Source of the DNA: Terriglobia bacterium
GTDB taxonomy: Bacteria > Acidobacteriota > Terriglobia > Acidiferrales > UBA7541
NCBI GenBank assembly: GCA_020072785.1
Contig: JAIQGG010000001.1
Span: forward strand, 1-64,000
Direction: 5' to 3'
DNA length: 64,000 bases
In this document: positions 42,336-50,162 of the stretch, one piece after another
Layout of the letters: each line of letters begins with the position of its first letter
Numbering within the stretch: the first letter of the stretch is position 1
The notes under the pieces: model-generated
Databases searched by the model: none
What the model was told of the DNA's origin: nothing
The model's input: the letters and a program-made list of their open reading frames with translations, nothing else
Program-made: the position numbers and the translations under genes

Positions 42336-43454
42336 TCAGCCGCGGGTGCGCTGGAATTCGCGCATGAAGCCGACCAGCGCTTCGACGGCTTCGAGCGAAA
42401 CCGCGTTGTAGAGCGAGGCGCGCATGCCGCCCACCGAGCGGTGCCCGGCCAGGCCGATGAGGCCCGCCGCCGTGGCTTCCTGCGCAAACTGTTTTTCGAG
42501 GGCTTCGTTTCCGCCGGCCACGCGGAAGACCACGTTCATCTTCGAGCGCGAGGCTTTCTCCACCGGACAGGTATAGAAGCTGCCGGCATCCAGCGCGTCA
42601 TAGAGCAGCTTGGCTTTGGCCGCGTTGCGCTTTTCCATGCCGGCGAGGCCGCCTTGTGCTTCGATCCACTCGGTCACCAGGCCGATGATGTATACCGCGA
42701 AGGTCGGCGGCGTGTGATAGAGCGATTTTTCCTTGATGTGCGTGCGGTACTGCAGCACCGTCGGCAGATTCTTGTCCGCGCGCTCGGCCAGGTCCTTGCG
42801 CACGATCACCACGGTCGCGCCGGAAGGACCGAGGTTTTTCTGGGCGCCGGCGAAGATCAGCCCGAACTTCTTGACGTCCACGGGGCGCGAGGCGATATCC
42901 GAAGACATGTCCGCAACCAGGGGCACCCCGCCGGTCTCCGGCGGCGCGGTCCACTGTGTGCCCTCGATGGTGTTGTTGGTGCACATATAGACGTAGGAGG
43001 CGTCCGGCGAGAGCGAAATCTCTTCCAGACGAGGCACGCGCGTGAATTTCCCGGCTTCCGTGCTCGCCGCGATGCGGTGGGCCACGCCTTTCTTCAGCTC
43101 GGCGATGGCCTTGGCGGTCCAGCTCCCGGTATGCAGCACGTCCACGGGCTTCCCCGGAAGGCACAGGTTCATGGGCACCATGGTGAACTGCAAGCTGCCG
43201 CCGCCCTGCACAAAAATCACCGCGTAGTCTTCGGGAATTCCCAGGTGCTGACGCAGCCCCTGTTCAGCGTGCGCGTTGATGGCCTCGAATTCCGGCGAGC
43301 GGTGGCTCATCTCCATCACGGACATGCCGCAGCCGCGGTAATCCAGCAGCTCCTCGCGGATGCGCTCCAGGACCGGGAGGGGCAGGGCCCCCGGGCCGGC
43401 GTTGAAATTGAAAACACGCTTCGTGTTGCGCGCACTGCCTGTGGGAAAACTCAC
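42336..43454 (-). CDS. serC: Phosphoserine aminotransferase
   Basis: A 372-residue pyridoxal-phosphate enzyme that makes phosphoserine from 3-phosphohydroxypyruvate in serine synthesis. Family motifs are FNFNAGPGALPLPVL (about 15-29), MEMSHRSPEF (about 47-56), FVQGGGSLQF (about 81-90) and the PLP lysine in FAGAQKNLGPSG (about 205-216). The C-terminal GHRSVGGMRASLYNA is also typical. Length is canonical. No serA or serB gene is next to it. ATG 43454 gives the best N-terminus and follows AGAGAGGA-type purines. Confidence 0.95.
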   Translation of the reverse strand: MSFPTGSARNTKRVFNFNAGPGALPLPVLERIREELLDYRGCGMSVMEMSHRSPEFEAINAHAEQGLRQHLGIPEDYAVIFVQGGGSLQFTMVPMNLCLPGKPVDVLHTGSWTAKAIAELKKGVAHRIAASTEAGKFTRVPRLEEISLSPDASYVYMCTNNTIEGTQWTAPPETGGVPLVADMSSDIASRPVDVKKFGLIFAGAQKNLGPSGATVVIVRKDLAERADKNLPTVLQYRTHIKEKSLYHTPPTFAVYIIGLVTEWIEAQGGLAGMEKRNAAKAKLLYDALDAGSFYTCPVEKASRSKMNVVFRVAGGNEALEKQFAQEATAAGLIGLAGHRSVGGMRASLYNAVSLEAVEALVGFMREFQRTRG

Positions 43455-43770
43455 GATGGTCGAATCCTCTCTGTGGAAATGGGGCGGTGGGCGGGAGGGG
43501 CCGGCGGCGCCATGTGTTCCACCCTACAGAGTAGCAGAAATCGCCGGTTCTCCTCTCCTCCGGCGGAACGCGGCGGGCCGCCGGGGGCGCGTTTTTTCCG
43601 CGGAGAATGCCGGAGGCAGAAGACCAATTTTGCCAATGGAGAGAGGCTCTCCGCCCAAGAAATCGGCTTGACTCGCCTAGCGCCTCTGAGTCCTAATATG
43701 CCTGCTTTCTTCTCTGGGGGCATTCGTTTACGGCGCGTCCGCCTCTTTCCCGGGGGAACGCCCGCAGGCG
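43455..43770. other. Spacer between serC and the RiPP-like locus
   Basis: No gene seen. It contains a GGAGAG-AGG-CTCTCC hairpin (43638-43652) and hexamers TTGACT (43668-43673) and TAATAT (43694-43699) whose 20-bp spacing is too wide for a standard promoter. Promoters for the divergent serC and the locus to the right must lie here. Confidence 0.4.
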
Positions 43771-44568
43771 ATGAGGAGACACTTGGGAGTACCGCACGTT
43801 GCTTTAGTTCGCCGTCCGACACAAACGCTCGAATTTTCCATCGGCAGCGTGCCCTTCCGTGTCTCTCTTCCGAACGATACTCTTTATCACTCCGCCGCGG
43901 CCCGCTACGCCGCGTTTCAAGGGGCGGAGGGAGATCCATTTCCCATCCGAGTTATCGAATTGGACGAGCCGGCACAGGGTGCGGCGGAGTTTGCCTACGA
44001 ATGGGAGCAAAGCCGGCTGCAGTGCTGCGCCGGGGAAGCGCTCTTCACGAGCGTACGCAATGAATATGTATTCGATTCCTTGCTGCGCATCCTGTTTTCC
44101 TGGATTCTGCTGCCCCGCAGCGGTTTTCTATTGCATGCGGCCACGGTCGTGCGCCAGGGGCGCGCCTACGTCTTCACCGGGCGTTCCGGCGCCGGGAAGA
44201 GCACGCTGGCCTCGCTGGCGCCCGCGGGCAGCGTGCTGACCGACGAGATTTCGCTGCTGCGCTTCGAAGAGGGCGCCTGGCGCGCCTACGGCACGCCGTT
44301 CTGGGGCGAATTTCGTGCCGGCGATGTGAATCACAGCGCTCCCGTGGCCGGCATTTTCCGCCTGGTGCAGGCCCCGGAGAATCGCGCCGCGCCGCGCCGC
44401 CCGGCGGAGTTGCTGCGCGCGCTTTTGCCCAACGTCTTGTTTTTTTCCGCGCAGCCTGCGGCCAACGGCCGGCTCCTGGAGATTCTCAGCGGCGTTGCGG
44501 AAGAGATCCCCGGATACGATCTGGAGTTCCGTAAAGACCGAACGGTCTGGGAGGTTCTGCCCGCATGA
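43771..44568 (+). CDS. HprK-like kinase of a RiPP-type locus
   Basis: A 265-residue cytoplasmic protein with an HPr-kinase-like nucleotide-binding domain: Walker A GRSGAGKST (137-145) after LLHAATVVRQGRAYVF (with H122), and an acidic Walker B-like LTDEISLL. Relatives sit in peptide-modification clusters, including lasso-peptide loci in which an HprK-like kinase phosphorylates the precursor. The N-terminal about 110 residues are less conserved. The gene overlaps the PqqD-like gene by 4 nt (ATGA). It opens the locus kinase-chaperone-radical SAM-precursor-protease, so a role in modifying or sensing the peptide is likely, but its substrate is not shown. Confidence 0.78.
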   Translation: MRRHLGVPHVALVRRPTQTLEFSIGSVPFRVSLPNDTLYHSAAARYAAFQGAEGDPFPIRVIELDEPAQGAAEFAYEWEQSRLQCCAGEALFTSVRNEYVFDSLLRILFSWILLPRSGFLLHAATVVRQGRAYVFTGRSGAGKSTLASLAPAGSVLTDEISLLRFEEGAWRAYGTPFWGEFRAGDVNHSAPVAGIFRLVQAPENRAAPRRPAELLRALLPNVLFFSAQPAANGRLLEILSGVAEEIPGYDLEFRKDRTVWEVLPA

Positions 44569-44861
44569 GCACGACGATTCCCTGGCAGAAGAATCCGCTT
44601 CTGGCCTGGCGGGAAATCGATGGCGAAACGGTCATCATCTCGCCCAGCGACAGCGTGATGCACGAGCTCAACGAGACCGCCAGCTTCATCTGGCGGCAGA
44701 TCGACGGGCGCTGTTCCGCCGCGGACCTCGCCGGGATGCTCGCCGCCGAATACGAAGTACCGCCGGGAGATGCGCTGGCCGACACCGAAGCGCTGCTGCA
44801 GCAACTGGCCACGCGCGAGCTGCTCGTCACCGCCGCGGCCGCGGGCGGAGCCGCGCGTTGA
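44565..44861 (+). CDS. PqqD-like peptide chaperone (RRE domain)
   Basis: A 98-residue protein of the PqqD family, a RiPP recognition element that binds the leader of a precursor peptide and presents it to the modifying enzyme. The family pattern is clear: ISPSDSVMHELNETASFIWRQIDG (about 25-48), followed by a winged-helix-like AADLAGMLAAEY and the C-terminal helix LLQQLATRELL. It overlaps both neighbours by 4 nt (ATGA upstream, TTGA downstream), showing tight translational coupling with the kinase and the radical SAM enzyme. The partner precursor is probably the 53-residue peptide at 46085, whose leader has a YxxP motif. Confidence 0.85.
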   Translation: MSTTIPWQKNPLLAWREIDGETVIISPSDSVMHELNETASFIWRQIDGRCSAADLAGMLAAEYEVPPGDALADTEALLQQLATRELLVTAAAAGGAAR

Positions 44862-46018
44862 GCACAGCGGCACAGGCTGCTGCTTCCGTAATGGAGCGGG
44901 TGGCCGCGCGCACCGCGCGCAAGCACCATCCGCTCCATGTCCACTTTGACCTGACCTATCGTTGCAACGAGCGCTGCGTCCATTGCTATCTCGACCATGA
45001 GGACCACGGCGAACTCAGCACCACCGAAATCCTCCGGGTGCTCGAGGAGCTGGCGGCTGCCGGCGTTCTCACTCTGACGTTCAGCGGCGGCGAAATTTTT
45101 CTTCGCCCCGATCTCTTCGAAATTCTCGCGGCGGCCCGCGGCTTGCACTTTGATATCAGCCTCAAGACCAATGCTGTGCTGGTCACCGCGGAGCGCGCCA
45201 CGCGTTTGCACCAACTGGGCGTTCGCAACATCCAGATCAGCGTCTATAGCGACGACCCGGTCGTGCATGACGCCATTACCAAAGTATCCGGCTCGCTCGC
45301 GCGCACTCTCGCTGCCGTCCCGTGGCTCGTCGCGCAGGGGATAAAGGTCCGGCTGGCCTGCCCGCTGATGCAGCAGAATCTGATGGCCTACCGCGGGGTT
45401 ATGGCCCTGGCCGAAAAACTGGGCGTATCCTATAGCTTCGACCCCACCATCACGCCGATGATGGACGGCTCCGCGGGGCCGCTCGCGCATCGCGTCTCGA
45501 CTGCCGCGCTGTTGCCCGTCCTGCAGGATCCCGTCTTGAGCGCCTGCCGCCCGCGGCCCGCGGCCCAAGCGGATGTCGCCAGGCCTTCCGGGAAGCTCGT
45601 CCCTGCACTGGCCAGCGCCGTCTCCAGCGGTCTTGAATCCTCCGCCTACGAGGACATCCCCTGCAGCGCCGGCCACAACAGTTTCTACATTTCTCCCTAC
45701 GGCGATGTTCTTCCTTGCGTGCAGTTGCCGCAGCCGGCGGGGAACCTTCGCCGCCAACGCTTCCGTGACATCTGGCAGCATGCCTCCTCTCTCGAACAAC
45801 TCCGAGCCGTGCGCGAAAGCCAGCTCCCGCTTTGTTCCTCCTGCGAGATTCGCGGCTATTGCGAGCGTTGTCCGGGGCTGGCTTTGATGGAGGGGGGCGA
45901 CGTTCTGGGCGCGTACGAGCGCGCCTGCGAGCTGGCCGAGCAAAAGGCGCGTTTCGCGGGCGTGGCCCGCCCGCTCAGCGCCCTGCATGCGGAACAAGCT
46001 GCCGCGGCGGGAAATTGA
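44858..46018 (+). CDS. Radical SAM/SPASM peptide maturase
   Basis: A 386-residue radical S-adenosylmethionine enzyme. The [4Fe-4S]-SAM cluster is CNERCVHC (C36, C40, C43), followed by FSGGEIFLRPDLFEI and a TIM-barrel pattern. The C-terminal SPASM domain is cysteine-rich: CSAGHNSFYISPYGDVLPCVQLP, then CSSCEIRGYCERCPG, ligands for auxiliary clusters. This is the PqqE/AlbA class that installs thioether or carbon-carbon links in ribosomal peptides. The start is taken as TTG 44858, overlapping the PqqD-like stop; ATG 44891 is the alternative. The precursor gene starts 66 nt after its stop. The exact chemistry cannot be told from sequence, but two cysteines in the precursor make thioether formation plausible. 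Confidence 0.88.
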   Translation: MSTAAQAAASVMERVAARTARKHHPLHVHFDLTYRCNERCVHCYLDHEDHGELSTTEILRVLEELAAAGVLTLTFSGGEIFLRPDLFEILAAARGLHFDISLKTNAVLVTAERATRLHQLGVRNIQISVYSDDPVVHDAITKVSGSLARTLAAVPWLVAQGIKVRLACPLMQQNLMAYRGVMALAEKLGVSYSFDPTITPMMDGSAGPLAHRVSTAALLPVLQDPVLSACRPRPAAQADVARPSGKLVPALASAVSSGLESSAYEDIPCSAGHNSFYISPYGDVLPCVQLPQPAGNLRRQRFRDIWQHASSLEQLRAVRESQLPLCSSCEIRGYCERCPGLALMEGGDVLGAYERACELAEQKARFAGVARPLSALHAEQAAAAGN

Positions 46019-46084
46019 CGCGCCAGTCGAAACGAACTTTCTTGTGACCAGGTACAACTCGTTCTAAAGTAAAGGACACGACGC

Positions 46085-46246
46085 ATGGCCGAAAATCACA
46101 AGACGCCGCCCGCAACGCCCAAGGGCAAAAAGCCGTACAGCAAGCCCACCGTCGCTTCGGAACCGATCTACGAAACGACGGCGCTGGCATGCAATAAGGT
46201 GAATTCCGTGGGTAGCTGCAGAGGCCCGGGAAACAAAACGTCCTGA
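46085..46246 (+). CDS. Putative RiPP precursor peptide, 53 residues
   Basis: A short gene directly after the maturase. The leader is Lys/Pro-rich and contains KKPYSKPTV with a YxxP motif (Y18-P21), which in lasso-type and related systems is read by the PqqD-like recognition domain. Then comes IYETTALAC (28-36), resembling leader ends of other radical SAM precursors, and a C-terminal core with C36 and C45 (CNKVNSVGSC) followed by RGPGNKTS. AAAGGA (46071-46076) is eight bases before the ATG. The 5' arm of an inverted repeat (46216-46232) lies in the last codons. Position, length, leader motif and paired cysteines support this call; expression and processing are inferred. No second precursor was seen. 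Confidence 0.75.
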   Translation: MAENHKTPPATPKGKKPYSKPTVASEPIYETTALACNKVNSVGSCRGPGNKTS

Positions 46247-46290
46247 TTTTTCGGGTCGCGGACGCGCCGCAAGCGTTCCGGGCTCTGCAG
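46216..46290 (+). repeat. Inverted repeat spanning the precursor stop codon
   Basis: CTGCAGAGGCCCGGGAA (46216-46232) can pair with TTCCGGGCTCTGCAG (46276-46290), with one or two bulges and a loop of about 43 nt. The left arm covers codons for the precursor C-terminus. It is not followed by a T-run; it may stabilise the precursor mRNA or reduce read-through into the protease gene. Confidence 0.6.
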
Positions 46291-46478
46291 GGAACGGCGC
46301 GCCAGCGCCGCGGGCCGGGCTCGCGAGATTCTTTGCATCCCATCCTGTTTCTTTGGACAAGTTCCGTAGAACCCCTTGTTGACCGTAATCGCTGAAAGAA
46401 AGACTCTATTCGCGGACCTGCGCGTTTTGCCCGGGAAACGCTGTGTTTCACCGGCGGAAACTGGCGGCAGGCTACGCG

Positions 46479-47270
46479 ATGCCCGGATCACACCGCAACC
46501 AAGAAGATCTCGCGCTCTCCGCCCACCCGCCGCGCGGGCGATGGAGGAGGGCGTCCTCTTCTTCCGCGCCGGGCCTGCGCTCCGGGAGCTCCCCGGCGCC
46601 TTTGTACCCGCCCGCTTCGGAAACTTCTGCGGTGCCGGCGCCCGCGACCGGAGGGCTGGCCTTTCCTGCACTGGGCGCCGTGCCGTTGCCCGATCCCGGA
46701 TTTTCGCGCGCCGAAGACGCTGGGATATCCTTTGCGGAACGCCGCTCGGGTGCCTGCGCCATCGGCGGCGAACGCCGTACGAGCGATGCCCAAGCCGTTG
46801 CCGAGGCGCTGCTGAACCACAGCCGCGTGGTGCTTCGTGTTTACGGAGCCAGCATGCTTCCCTGGGTGCGGCCGGGCGACGTCGTGGTCATCCACAGCGC
46901 TTCGCCAGACACCGTGCGCTGTGGTGACGTGGTTCTTTTCCGGCGCGGCGACAGGCTGTATGTTCACCGTATTGTCGAAAGACGCGGCCTGCGCCAGGGT
47001 GCCCGTTTTCTCGCCAAGGGCGACGCCAATCCTCATGCCGACGGCATCATTGGCCAGGAAGAGATTCTCGGCCGGGTCCTGAGCCTCTATCGCGGCAACC
47101 GGCTTATCGATCTCGATTCGCCGGGGCAGCTGATGCTCGGCCTGCTGATCGCCCAGTTTTCCCGGTGCAGCAGCCTGGGCTACCTGCTCGCGCGGGTGGC
47201 GAGCGGGGTTGCGCGCCCGGCGCGCCGCGTGCTGCACCTGCTGGCTCCGTCCAGCGTTCTTTCCCGCTGA
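46479..47270 (+). CDS. S26-family signal-peptidase-like protease
   Basis: A 263-residue protein. The first about 100 residues are Pro/Ser/Ala-rich and probably disordered; the rest is an S26 peptidase core. The nucleophile is S125 in RVYGASMLPWVRPGDVV, and the general base is probably H163 in LYVHRIVERRG, the Ser/His form of ER/archaeal-type signal peptidases rather than the Ser/Lys form of LepB. FLAKGDANPHAD is the further conserved box. C-terminal hydrophobic residues could anchor it. S26 proteins of this form occur in PqqD/radical SAM peptide clusters and may remove the leader. The start is uncertain: ATG 46479 is used, but a GTG at 46680 would omit most of the disordered part. Confidence 0.72.
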   Translation: MPGSHRNQEDLALSAHPPRGRWRRASSSSAPGLRSGSSPAPLYPPASETSAVPAPATGGLAFPALGAVPLPDPGFSRAEDAGISFAERRSGACAIGGERRTSDAQAVAEALLNHSRVVLRVYGASMLPWVRPGDVVVIHSASPDTVRCGDVVLFRRGDRLYVHRIVERRGLRQGARFLAKGDANPHADGIIGQEEILGRVLSLYRGNRLIDLDSPGQLMLGLLIAQFSRCSSLGYLLARVASGVARPARRVLHLLAPSSVLSR

Positions 47271-47288
47271 CCCGCTGTCTCTCGTAAG

Positions 47289-47336
47289 CGCGACCGCGAA
47301 GCGGTCAACTTCACGTGTGACCGCAAAGCGGTCAAC
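47289..47336 (-). repeat. Tandem pair of the dispersed 21-bp palindromic repeat, at the rnr 3' end
   Basis: Two copies, 47289-47309 and 47316-47336, 27 bp apart, each with perfect arms GACCGC and GCGGTC. On the minus strand the GTTGAC of the right-hand copy supplies the TGA stop codon of rnr (47332-47334). Confidence 0.85.
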
Positions 47337-49905
47337 TTTCCGCGTTCACCAGAGCGAATTCCACGCGCCGGCGCATGGGGTCGATGCGCTCCGCGCGCAC
47401 GCGCACCCGGTCGCCCAGCCGCCAGGCGCGCGCTGCGGGCTTGACCGCGGCGTGCCGCGCGGGGGCACGGCCGTGGGCGTGCGGGGCGAGGGCCACCAGC
47501 GCGTGGTCGCGCTCGCGGTAGACACAGCGCGCCTGCGCCGCCTCTTCCAGAGCGCTCACCGGCAGCAACCCCTCCACGAAGACCTCGAATAGCTCCACGA
47601 AGCAGCCGTACTTCTGCACGGAGATAATCAGCGCGTCGAACTCATCGCCCAGCCGCCCTTCCATGTACTGCGCGCGCTTCCAGTTCATCAGCTCGCGCTC
47701 GGCGGCGTCCGCGCGGCGCTCCGCGTCCGAAGTTTCCGTGCCCAGCTCTTCTAGGTGCGGGCGGGTGTACACCGCGGCCTCCGCGCCGCGGGGCGCGCCG
47801 CGCGCGGGAGCGGTTTCGCGCGGCGAAGGCGCGGCGGAGTCCGGATGCGCCAGCGCCCACTTCAGGATGCGGTGCACGATGAGGTCGGGATAGCGGCGGA
47901 TGGGCGAGGTGAAATGGGTGTATTCGTCGAAACCCAGGGCGAAGTGGCCGAGCGCGTCGGCGGCATAGCGCGCCTGCTTCAGCGAGCGCAGCATCAGGTA
48001 GGAGATGATGCGCTCCTCGGGCTTCCCGGCGAGCTTCTGCACCAGGCGCTGGTAGTGCTGCGGGGAGATGCGCAGCTCCACGCCCGGGGTGGCGCCGGGC
48101 AGCGTGACGCGCATCGCCCGCGGCCGCCCGTGCCCGTAGGAATCGGGCCGCCCCCGCCGCGCGGGCGCCGGCACGCGCCCGTGGCGCACGGGCATCACGC
48201 GTTCGAAAAGGCCCTCCACGCCCAGGGAATACCCGAAGGCCCGCGCCAGCTCCTCGAACTCCAGCACCTTTTTGGCGTCCGGCTTTTCGTGCACGCGGTG
48301 CAGCGAGGCGATGCCGCGCTTTTCGAGGTAGCCGGCCACCGCGCGGTTGGCCGCCAGCATGAACTCTTCGATCAGGCGGTGCGCGTCGTTGCGCTCGCTG
48401 CGCGAGATGCTGGTCATGCGCAGCTGTTCGTCGAATTCGATGACCGGCTCGGGGAGGTCGAAATCGATGGAGCCGCGCTCGCTGCGGCGGGCGTTGAGGA
48501 GCAGCGCCAGTTCGCGCATGTCCTGGAAATGGTGGGCCAGCGCGGCATACTCCGCGGTGGTCTCCGCGTCGCCCTGCAGCACCTTGTTGACGTTGGTGTA
48601 AGTCATGCGCGCGGCCGAGCGGATTACCCCGGGCACGAAGCGCGCCGAGAGCATGTGCCCCGCGGCGTCCAACTCCAGCAAGGCGCTCAACACCAGGCGC
48701 TCTTCGTGGGGGTTGAGCGAGCAGATGCCGCTGGAGAGCTCCTCGGGCAGCATGGGCACGGCGCGGCTCGGGAAATAGACGCTGGTGCTGCGCAGGCGCG
48801 CGTCGCGGTCCAGCGCGGTTCCCGCACGCACGTAATGCGAGACGTCCGCGATGTGCACGGCCAGGTGCCAGCCGCCGCCGGGGCGGCGCTCGATGTACAC
48901 GGCGTCGTCGAAATCCCGCGCCGTTTCTCCGTCGATGGTGACGATCGGCAGATGGCGGAAATCCTCACGCCCCTCGCGGTCGTGGGCGCTCACCGGCTGC
49001 GCGCGCTCGTTGGCTTCCTCGAGCGCATCCCCGGGAAAGACGTGCGGCAGGTGGTGCTTGCGGATGATGATCTCCGTGTCCACCCCGATATCGCCCGGGC
49101 GGCCCACGATCTCCACCACGCGCCCGGTCGCGCCGCCTCCGCCCCGGGGATAGCGCACCATCTCCACGTTCACCACCGCGCCGTCCAGCTCCGGCAGGCG
49201 CGGCAGCCGCCGCAGATGCGCGGGATGCCTGCCTCGCGCTGCATGCTCTTCCGCGGGAGGCAGCCCGAGCTTTTCCGCGAGCGTCTCGCGCAGCCCGGGC
49301 GTCAGCTCCTCGCCGGGGGGAATCTCGATTTCGTGCTGGATGCGCGTGTCGTAGGGCAGGACCACGTTGCCGCGCGCGCCGTAGCGGAAGAGGCCCACGA
49401 TGGTGGGATGCGCCCGCTCCAGCACGCGCAGGATGCGCCCCTCGGCGCGCTGTGCGCCGGGGATTCCGCTCATGCGCGTGATCTTGGCCAGCACGCGGTC
49501 GGAGTGCATGGCGTCCTCGATGGCGTCGCGGCCGATGAAGATGTCGCCGTCGAGATGCGGCAGCGGCGTTTCGGGCACGACGAAGCCGTAGCCGTCCTGG
49601 TGCAGCACCAGCCGCCCGGTCACGGTGTCCCGGCCAGCCGCCGCAGCGGCGAGTCCCGCGGCTTCGTGGCGCTCGCGGCCCGCGGCGGGCGTGAGGCCCT
49701 TGCGGCCGAAGACGCGGTAGCGTCCACCGGGCAGCTCTTCGATGGCGCCGCGTTTTTTCATCTTGGCGAGGATTTTGTGGAGCATGCGGCGGGCATGCTT
49801 GGGCAGGCGCAGACCGCCGGCAATTTCATTGGTGTTTGCAGGGCTTCCGCGATCTTGCAGAAAATGCAAGACATCGGCGTATTGGATGGTGTCCGTGCGA
49901 GGCAT
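47332..49905 (-). CDS. rnr: Ribonuclease R
   Basis: An 857-residue 3'-5' exoribonuclease of the RNB family. Order: an N-terminal winged-helix domain (about 8-65), two cold-shock-like RNA-binding domains, the RNB catalytic domain with ETARDFDDAVYIERR (its four aspartate ligands of Mg2+), and the closing VHIADVSHYV, then a C-terminal S1 domain (DALIISVQKYGCFVELFEVFVEGL). The central insertion and C-terminus are rich in Arg and Gly. ATG 49905 is used; a TTG at 49974 would add 23 residues. The stop codon lies within a palindromic repeat, so the last residues may have been set by repeat insertion. Confidence 0.93.
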   Translation of the reverse strand: MPRTDTIQYADVLHFLQDRGSPANTNEIAGGLRLPKHARRMLHKILAKMKKRGAIEELPGGRYRVFGRKGLTPAAGRERHEAAGLAAAAAGRDTVTGRLVLHQDGYGFVVPETPLPHLDGDIFIGRDAIEDAMHSDRVLAKITRMSGIPGAQRAEGRILRVLERAHPTIVGLFRYGARGNVVLPYDTRIQHEIEIPPGEELTPGLRETLAEKLGLPPAEEHAARGRHPAHLRRLPRLPELDGAVVNVEMVRYPRGGGGATGRVVEIVGRPGDIGVDTEIIIRKHHLPHVFPGDALEEANERAQPVSAHDREGREDFRHLPIVTIDGETARDFDDAVYIERRPGGGWHLAVHIADVSHYVRAGTALDRDARLRSTSVYFPSRAVPMLPEELSSGICSLNPHEERLVLSALLELDAAGHMLSARFVPGVIRSAARMTYTNVNKVLQGDAETTAEYAALAHHFQDMRELALLLNARRSERGSIDFDLPEPVIEFDEQLRMTSISRSERNDAHRLIEEFMLAANRAVAGYLEKRGIASLHRVHEKPDAKKVLEFEELARAFGYSLGVEGLFERVMPVRHGRVPAPARRGRPDSYGHGRPRAMRVTLPGATPGVELRISPQHYQRLVQKLAGKPEERIISYLMLRSLKQARYAADALGHFALGFDEYTHFTSPIRRYPDLIVHRILKWALAHPDSAAPSPRETAPARGAPRGAEAAVYTRPHLEELGTETSDAERRADAAERELMNWKRAQYMEGRLGDEFDALIISVQKYGCFVELFEVFVEGLLPVSALEEAAQARCVYRERDHALVALAPHAHGRAPARHAAVKPAARAWRLGDRVRVRAERIDPMRRRVEFALVNAES

Positions 49906-50162
49906 CTTGGAAAGCGGCGAAAGGGCGTCCCGCTTCTCCTGCGATTCTAACGACAAATCGCCCGCGGGGCGCAACTTTTCGATGCCGGCTTATGTTTCCC
50001 GTGGAACAATTGCGGAACGCCAGGTGATTGCTGCGATTCGAATCGCGGCTATGGCAACGGCGCGAACCACTCGCGCGACGGGCTTTCGATGATCTTCATC
50101 AGCCCGTCCGTGACGTATTCACGGTAATGCGCCGTGGCGCGGTGCGCGATTGTCGCGCTCCG

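Follow-up and report, generated by a model that had tools for sequence, protein, structure and literature searches.

Genes and proposed function

What do the five adjacent genes at positions 43771-47270 of an Acidobacteriota contig make, and what would their product be for? The contig (JAIQGG010000001.1) is contig 1 of a 3.73-Mb Terriglobia assembly (GCA_020072785.1), and we analyzed its first 64,000 nucleotides, hereafter the window. An earlier note, made from the sequence alone, had proposed that these open reading frames (ORFs), encoding a kinase, a PqqD protein, a radical S-adenosylmethionine (SAM)/SPASM enzyme, a precursor and an S26 peptidase, produce a ribosomally synthesized and post-translationally modified peptide (RiPP). 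We consider it likely that the locus is a RiPP cassette that combines the kinase toolkit of the linear polyphosphorylated peptides (LPP) of Bacillota and of the paeninodin-type lasso peptides with a radical SAM enzyme and lacks a cyclase and a transporter. The features of the cassette are as follows.

43771..44568, + strand: HprK/PEPCK-fold kinase, 265 residues (P0001); Walker A motif GRSGAGKST at 44179-44205
44565..44861, + strand: PqqD-type RiPP recognition element (RRE), 98 residues (P0002); Pfam PqqD, 7e-20
44858..46018, + strand: radical SAM/SPASM maturase, 386 residues (P0003), TTG start; CxxxCxxC at 44963-44986; 7-Cys SPASM pattern
46085..46246, + strand: precursor, 53 residues (P0004); predicted leader 1-31 ending in YET; YSKP at 46136-46147
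46178-46243, + strand: predicted window core TALACNKVNSVGSCRGPGNKTS, 22 residues; Cys at 46190-46192 and 46217-46219; C-terminal Ser at 46241-46243
46443..47270, + strand: S26 (SipW/Sec11-like) peptidase ORF; Ser at 46851-46853, His at 46965-46967, Asp at 47040-47042

All five ORFs were found on the same strand where the note had placed them, and the coupling of the first three genes was borne out by 4-nt overlaps of kinase and PqqD genes (44565-44568) and of the PqqD stop with the radical SAM TTG (44858-44861). The Walker A, CxxxCxxC and seven-Cys SPASM motifs are present, and Pfam agreed with the proposed families for Radical_SAM (6e-21), SPASM (2e-11) and the S24/S26 peptidase (5e-8) as well as for PqqD. 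The absence of a transporter also held among the ten flanking genes scanned.

Conservation in relatives

Genome contigs were scanned with the radical SAM protein alone, which returned 76 loci, or 77 counting the window. Most are from Acidobacteriota, with some from Xanthomonadales/Lysobacterales and Burkholderiales; the cassette is common to many soil bacteria. All five genes were present in 62 of the 77 loci. Because the set recurs in loci retrieved with a single protein, it is genuine and not a chance arrangement. In 49 of the 62 the precursor precedes the radical SAM gene, the usual order being precursor-S26-kinase-PqqD-radical SAM, and in 13, including the window, the order is kinase-PqqD-radical SAM-precursor followed by S26. 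The expectation of a peptide downstream of the radical SAM gene was therefore correct for the clade of the window, but not for most relatives, in which the peptide is upstream and beside the S26 gene. The note had also asked whether homologous maturases might lack a conserved peptide. A precursor homologue was present in 67/77 loci, beside the kinase, PqqD and usually S26 genes, and several of the other loci are cut by contig ends; this outcome supports the interpretation given in the note. A PqqD homologue was found in 74/77 loci and the S26 peptidase, likewise proposed as part of the set, in 68/77.

A nucleoside triphosphate (NTP) transferase gene is present in 37 related loci. On another of its contigs (G000:C3:43807-44943; L192, L197), the window genome encodes an NTP_transf_5 protein that is 39% identical to the one accompanying the cassette in relatives; no cassette genes adjoin it.

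Precursor peptide

Homologues of the precursor were found in about 70 loci, and no second copy was found in the window genome. The ratio of nonsynonymous to synonymous polymorphism (pN/pS) of the precursor against its closest relative was 0.28, similar to the enzymes, and the peptide is under purifying selection. What is generally expected of a RiPP, an encoded precursor that is retained with its modifying enzymes, was found here.

We compared 69 alignable precursors. Their leaders carry YxxP, then, eight positions after the Tyr, an acidic residue that is almost invariably Glu, and then [FY]ET (or FVT, FEV or FVI). With the leader/core boundary placed by analogy with LPP, predicted cores have 21-24 residues, and 22 in 56/69. 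Leu3 and Cys5 of the core are present in all 69 precursors, and Ala2 and Lys7 in 68 each. Every precursor has exactly two Cys, one of them beyond Cys5. All 69 end in Ser, compared to a background of 11% of short ORFs in those loci. The L037-type core is ACGKLPGQGGVCNAAPRRS. With two Cys, a terminal Ser and a nearly fixed length, the precursors are regular enough that a single co-expression could reveal the modification.

Modifying enzymes and peptidase

The kinase had no Pfam match, and its NCBIfam matches (ScmC and HprK_rel_A) were weak and all under cut-off. Among PDB structures, its AlphaFold model (predicted local distance difference test score 90.7) matched those of PEPCK and HPr kinase/phosphatase, and the catalytic-type residues are conserved, with H122 in 73/74 homologues and K143, D158 and E159 in 74/74. 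The cluster Cys of the radical SAM enzyme are kept in at least 74 of 76 homologues. Its nearest PDB sequence is PqqE, and it matched no curated NCBIfam family at cut-off. Taken together, the CxxxCxxC motif, the SPASM domain, the PqqD-type RRE and the conserved peptide are the general features of a radical SAM/SPASM peptide maturase.

The S26 protein scored 57.1 bits with TIGR02228 (cut-off 51.85), and its nearest PDB sequence is SEC11. Ser, His and Asp were invariant in 68/68 homologues, and the spacings of 38 residues from Ser to His and 25 from His to Asp compare with 39 and 25 in LppS, the leader peptidase of LPP. The gene is real as the note had it, but its start is probably placed too early, at 46443. 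Read from the ATG at 46479, the first 90 residues had a pN/pS of 1.04 against the closest relative and the remaining 173 one of 0.35, and homologues (L036 and others) start near window position ~46740. Because the N-terminal stretch is unconstrained and the homologues start there, the ORF is probably over-extended, with the true start nearer ~46740.

Proposed pathway

In LPP, experimentally shown roles exist for the kinase, the RRE and the signal-peptidase-like enzyme (PMC13381572). LppS (S29, H68, D93) cuts after F-E-T, and only with the RRE LppB (Popov et al., PMC13381572), and LppK phosphorylates a core Ser (PMC13381572). Lasso-peptide kinases of the PadeK type, with an HKDD motif, phosphorylate the C-terminal Ser (PMC9266682). 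From these roles and the conserved residues we infer the following pathway. The PqqD protein would bind the YxKP motif of the leader and present the precursor. Since the core holds an invariant Cys pair and A-L-x-C-G-K, the radical SAM/SPASM enzyme would act on the core, most likely at A-L-x-C-G-K and the region of the second Cys. The HprK-like kinase would phosphorylate the C-terminal Ser, and the S26 Ser/His/Asp peptidase, held by PqqD, would cut after [FY]ET and free a 22-residue product (TALACNKVNSVGSCRGPGNKTS in the window). A Cys thioether cross-link is our leading guess for the radical SAM product, although a tentative one.

Several points weigh against this pathway. Its enzymatic steps are drawn from sequence and analogy, and the product of the radical SAM enzyme is not deducible from sequence. 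The fourth residue of the kinase motif is Glu (His-Lys-Asp-Glu), whereas paeninodin-type lasso kinases have Asp (His-Lys-Asp-Asp). The phosphorylated Ser of LPP is core residue 3 and not the C-terminus; that position is Leu here, and the predicted phosphosite consequently depends on the lasso kinases for its analogy. Compared with LPP, YxxP and FET are two residues closer together. Lastly, there is no nearby transporter, which leaves export unexplained. If the pathway is right, RiPPs that are modified by a kinase and processed by a signal peptidase would extend beyond Bacillota and be joined to a radical SAM enzyme.

Comparison with known systems

A search of open-access full text (few subscription papers, no preprints) found no paper describing an HprK/PqqD/radical SAM/S26 set, in line with the remark of the note that the combination had no named match. 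The closest comparison is LPP (lppA-K-B-S-D-N of Bacillota; PMC13381572). Both have an HprK-like kinase, here recognized by the PEPCK/HPr kinase fold and the catalytic residues, a discrete PqqD-type RRE, YxxP, and F/Y-E-T before the cut or predicted cut. The leader peptidase, archaeal-type and signal-peptidase-like with Ser/His/Asp beside a discrete RRE, is also shared, and many cassettes related to that of the window have the NTP transferase as well. However, the window cluster and the genes flanking it contain neither that transferase nor the MsbA-like transporter of LPP. The radical SAM/SPASM enzyme sets the cassette apart, the term "radical SAM" being absent from the LPP paper (PMC13381572), as do the C-terminal Ser, the two invariant Cys, the hosts (Acidobacteriota and Pseudomonadota) and the beta-propeller found in many relatives. 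Of the LPP leader consensus YxxPxVLxHQxIxFETxxS, YxxP and [FY]ET are present, but VLxHQ, the spacing and the core Ser3 are not. The cassette probably works like LPP, but because the full leader consensus, the core Ser3 and the transporter are lacking, it is not classed as LPP. A search with the window kinase retrieved a cluster from Bacillota, on a plasmid, that has genes for a kinase, PqqD and an S24/S26 peptidase. This cluster, on Butyrivibrio fibrisolvens plasmid pNP243 (L186), is LPP-like, with a nucleotidyltransferase, an ATP-binding cassette transporter, an HprK-like kinase, a YxxP peptide, PqqD, an S24/S26 peptidase and polysaccharide genes; its peptide is rich in Cys and Pro and has neither FET nor a terminal Ser.

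Paeninodin-type lasso clusters (PadeK/ThcoK; PMC9266682) share the HprK-like kinase, the invariant terminal Ser, a PqqD-type B1 protein and a YxxP/WxxP leader. Unlike them, the clusters studied here showed neither a B2 peptidase nor a macrolactam cyclase, and have S26 and radical SAM enzymes instead. Biosynthesis of pyrroloquinoline quinone (PQQ; PqqA/D/E) likewise pairs a PqqD-type RRE with a PqqE-like radical SAM/SPASM enzyme whose substrate is a small peptide, but the precursor is a different one, and the kinase and S26 peptidase are additional here. A PQQ-like identity was rejected, with 107.7 bits for the PqqE model compared to a cut-off of 381. SynChlorMet cassettes (ScmC/ScmD/ScmE/ScmF) bring together HprK-related, PqqD-related and PqqE-like radical SAM/SPASM proteins; they are not known to include an S26 peptidase. 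All matches to that system fell far below cut-off (34.9 of 125 bits for ScmC, 33.3 of 100 for ScmD, and 100.8 and 72.6 of 400 for ScmE/F), and so did those to the HPr-rel-A system (HprK_rel_A, 33.4 of 200; PqqD_rel_X, 16.4 of 35).

The precursors of more distant HprK-PqqD-radical SAM clusters in the phylum likewise carry YxxP, or a motif close to it, and two or more Cys; almost all of them end in Ser. Some from other Acidobacteriota (L126, L134, L143, L145 and L146) encode a precursor of the form RPEEAVLGxCK...C...C...S(end) with HprK, PqqD and radical SAM proteins, and probably form a sister family of RiPPs. Relatives of the radical SAM enzyme that are encoded on plasmids of E. coli and Thiodictyon have contexts that differ from the cassette. 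On an E. coli conjugative plasmid (CP099011.1, L184), a radical SAM protein that shares 30% identity with the maturase of the window lies between insertion sequence elements; this type occurs on conjugative E. coli/Salmonella plasmids, and no PqqD is annotated in the L184 stretch. The Thiodictyon plasmid pTs417 (5644-11721, L185) carries a related cluster in which radical SAM and PqqD proteins are joined by YcaO and TfuA proteins, and which possibly makes a thioamide or azoline RiPP.

Alternative readings and secreted beta-propellers

The HprK, PqqD and radical SAM families include members outside RiPP pathways, and the three enzymes could act on another substrate, with the small ORF incidental. 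We give this hardly any weight, as the small ORF is kept with the enzymes across the 67 loci, in two gene orders and under purifying selection. Almost as improbable is a lasso-peptide cluster, or the remnant of one, whose cyclase and B2 peptidase are elsewhere or lost. Weak lasso_PqqD matches, the YxxP leader and a kinase with a C-terminal Ser rule speak for it. However, the B2 family PF13471 is absent from the whole window genome, which largely refutes a lasso cluster; a cyclase or B2 was also not seen among the identified conserved neighbors or the genes flanking the window cassette, although the genome was not searched for a cyclase. Moreover, the window core has no Asp or Glu for a macrolactam, and it is a dedicated S26 peptidase and a radical SAM enzyme that are conserved instead. 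The site of the cut is less settled. By the '-3 Ala' rule of signal peptidases, S26 could cut before the first Cys (A-x-x|C) and leave an 18-residue window product starting with Cys. Ala stands three positions before Cys1 in 68/69 precursors, and does so in divergent families too; however, various residues occupy position -1 (A, S, T, R, I, F or G), cleavage by LppS after F-E-T is experimental, and the precursors studied here conserve [FY]ET or a motif close to it. We consider the A-x-x|C cut unlikely and prefer the cut after [FY]ET.

The remaining alternative concerns purpose: by a PQQ-like logic, the cassette might derive from its peptide a cofactor of a secreted propeller, or a ligand that activates it, and not a diffusible product. 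A large secreted beta-propeller gene, of type PROPa or PROPb, lies near the precursor in 35/76 loci. One carrier among named strains, Granulicella mallensis X5P3 (L064), encodes a propeller together with all five cassette proteins. PROPa has no Pfam match, and its model, of moderate confidence (70.6), resembles the propellers of BamB and tetrathionate hydrolase; PROPb has a DNRLRE domain and, in L048, PQQ_2-type propeller repeats. These PQQ_2/BamB-like folds favor a cofactor. PROPb is usually accompanied by the gene of a lipoprotein that had no family match and that we label immunoglobulin (Ig)-like by inspection of its sequence. In two loci (L044 and L046) the unit precursor-PROPb-lipoprotein is duplicated within one cluster, both precursors having the same predicted core. 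The association extends to unlinked genes. Six carriers of the same genus have PROPb on a contig other than that of the cassette, and the lipoprotein gene adjoined it in 3/3 examined (G417, G411 and G408). Among 61 relatives, PROPb was present in 7/9 cassette carriers compared to 0/52 others (p 8e-8 by Fisher's test, uncorrected for phylogeny). A tree of RNase R places the six carriers in one clade with G418 and with G407, G422 and G423, and these four lack both loci; this placement implies joint loss about twice, or joint gain repeatedly, and the statistics rest on few independent events. In contrast, the window genome and its sister G402, a separate pair, keep the cassette, with a different core sequence, and neither PROPb nor PROPa was found in them.

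We read these data as a functional partnership of peptide and propeller that may have been lost or replaced in the lineage of the window; the product of many relatives probably works together with the propeller or matures alongside it. That the cassette supplies such a cofactor or ligand and no diffusible product is possible, but we doubt it. We are similarly reserved about the idea of a new RiPP class. Its two-Cys peptide, modified by the radical SAM enzyme and phosphorylated at the C-terminus, would be a ligand or cofactor of a dedicated secreted propeller (with the Ig-like lipoprotein in some clades), and the clade of the window would be an offshoot that lost the propeller and changed its core. 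The co-occurrence with propellers provides an uncommon handle on the purpose of the peptide, a question that applies also to LPPs and paeninodins.

Insertion site and neighboring sequence

The cassette sits between two genes that bound its insertion site and lie outside it.

42336..43454, - strand: serC-like aminotransferase (Pfam Aminotran_5), left boundary
47332..49974, - strand: rnr, RNase R-like (Pfam RNB/OB_RNB/CSD2), right boundary

It occupies this site in the window genome and seven congeners (G402, G408, G417, G424, G405, G411 and G409), with serC and rnr 3.6-4.4 kb apart. The site is empty in G401, G404, G410, G416, G418, G426, G427 and G428, with the two genes about 110-400 bp apart and no cassette sequence between them, and further congeners have unrelated DNA there. 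Given the empty sites, the cassette is an accessory island. In G397 the interval (L169) holds a lone S26-like gene (487-1386, + strand), the other four genes being absent; this gene is a remnant or another insertion.

Rfam had no match in 43000-48000, and a scan for sigma-70-type promoters returned no sites. Just 3' of the cassette, at 47292-47338, there are two copies of a small palindromic repeat, GACCGCRAAGCGGTCAACTT. It has 20 exact copies genome-wide compared to 0 for the reversed control, which indicates a dispersed element resembling repetitive extragenic palindromic sequences.

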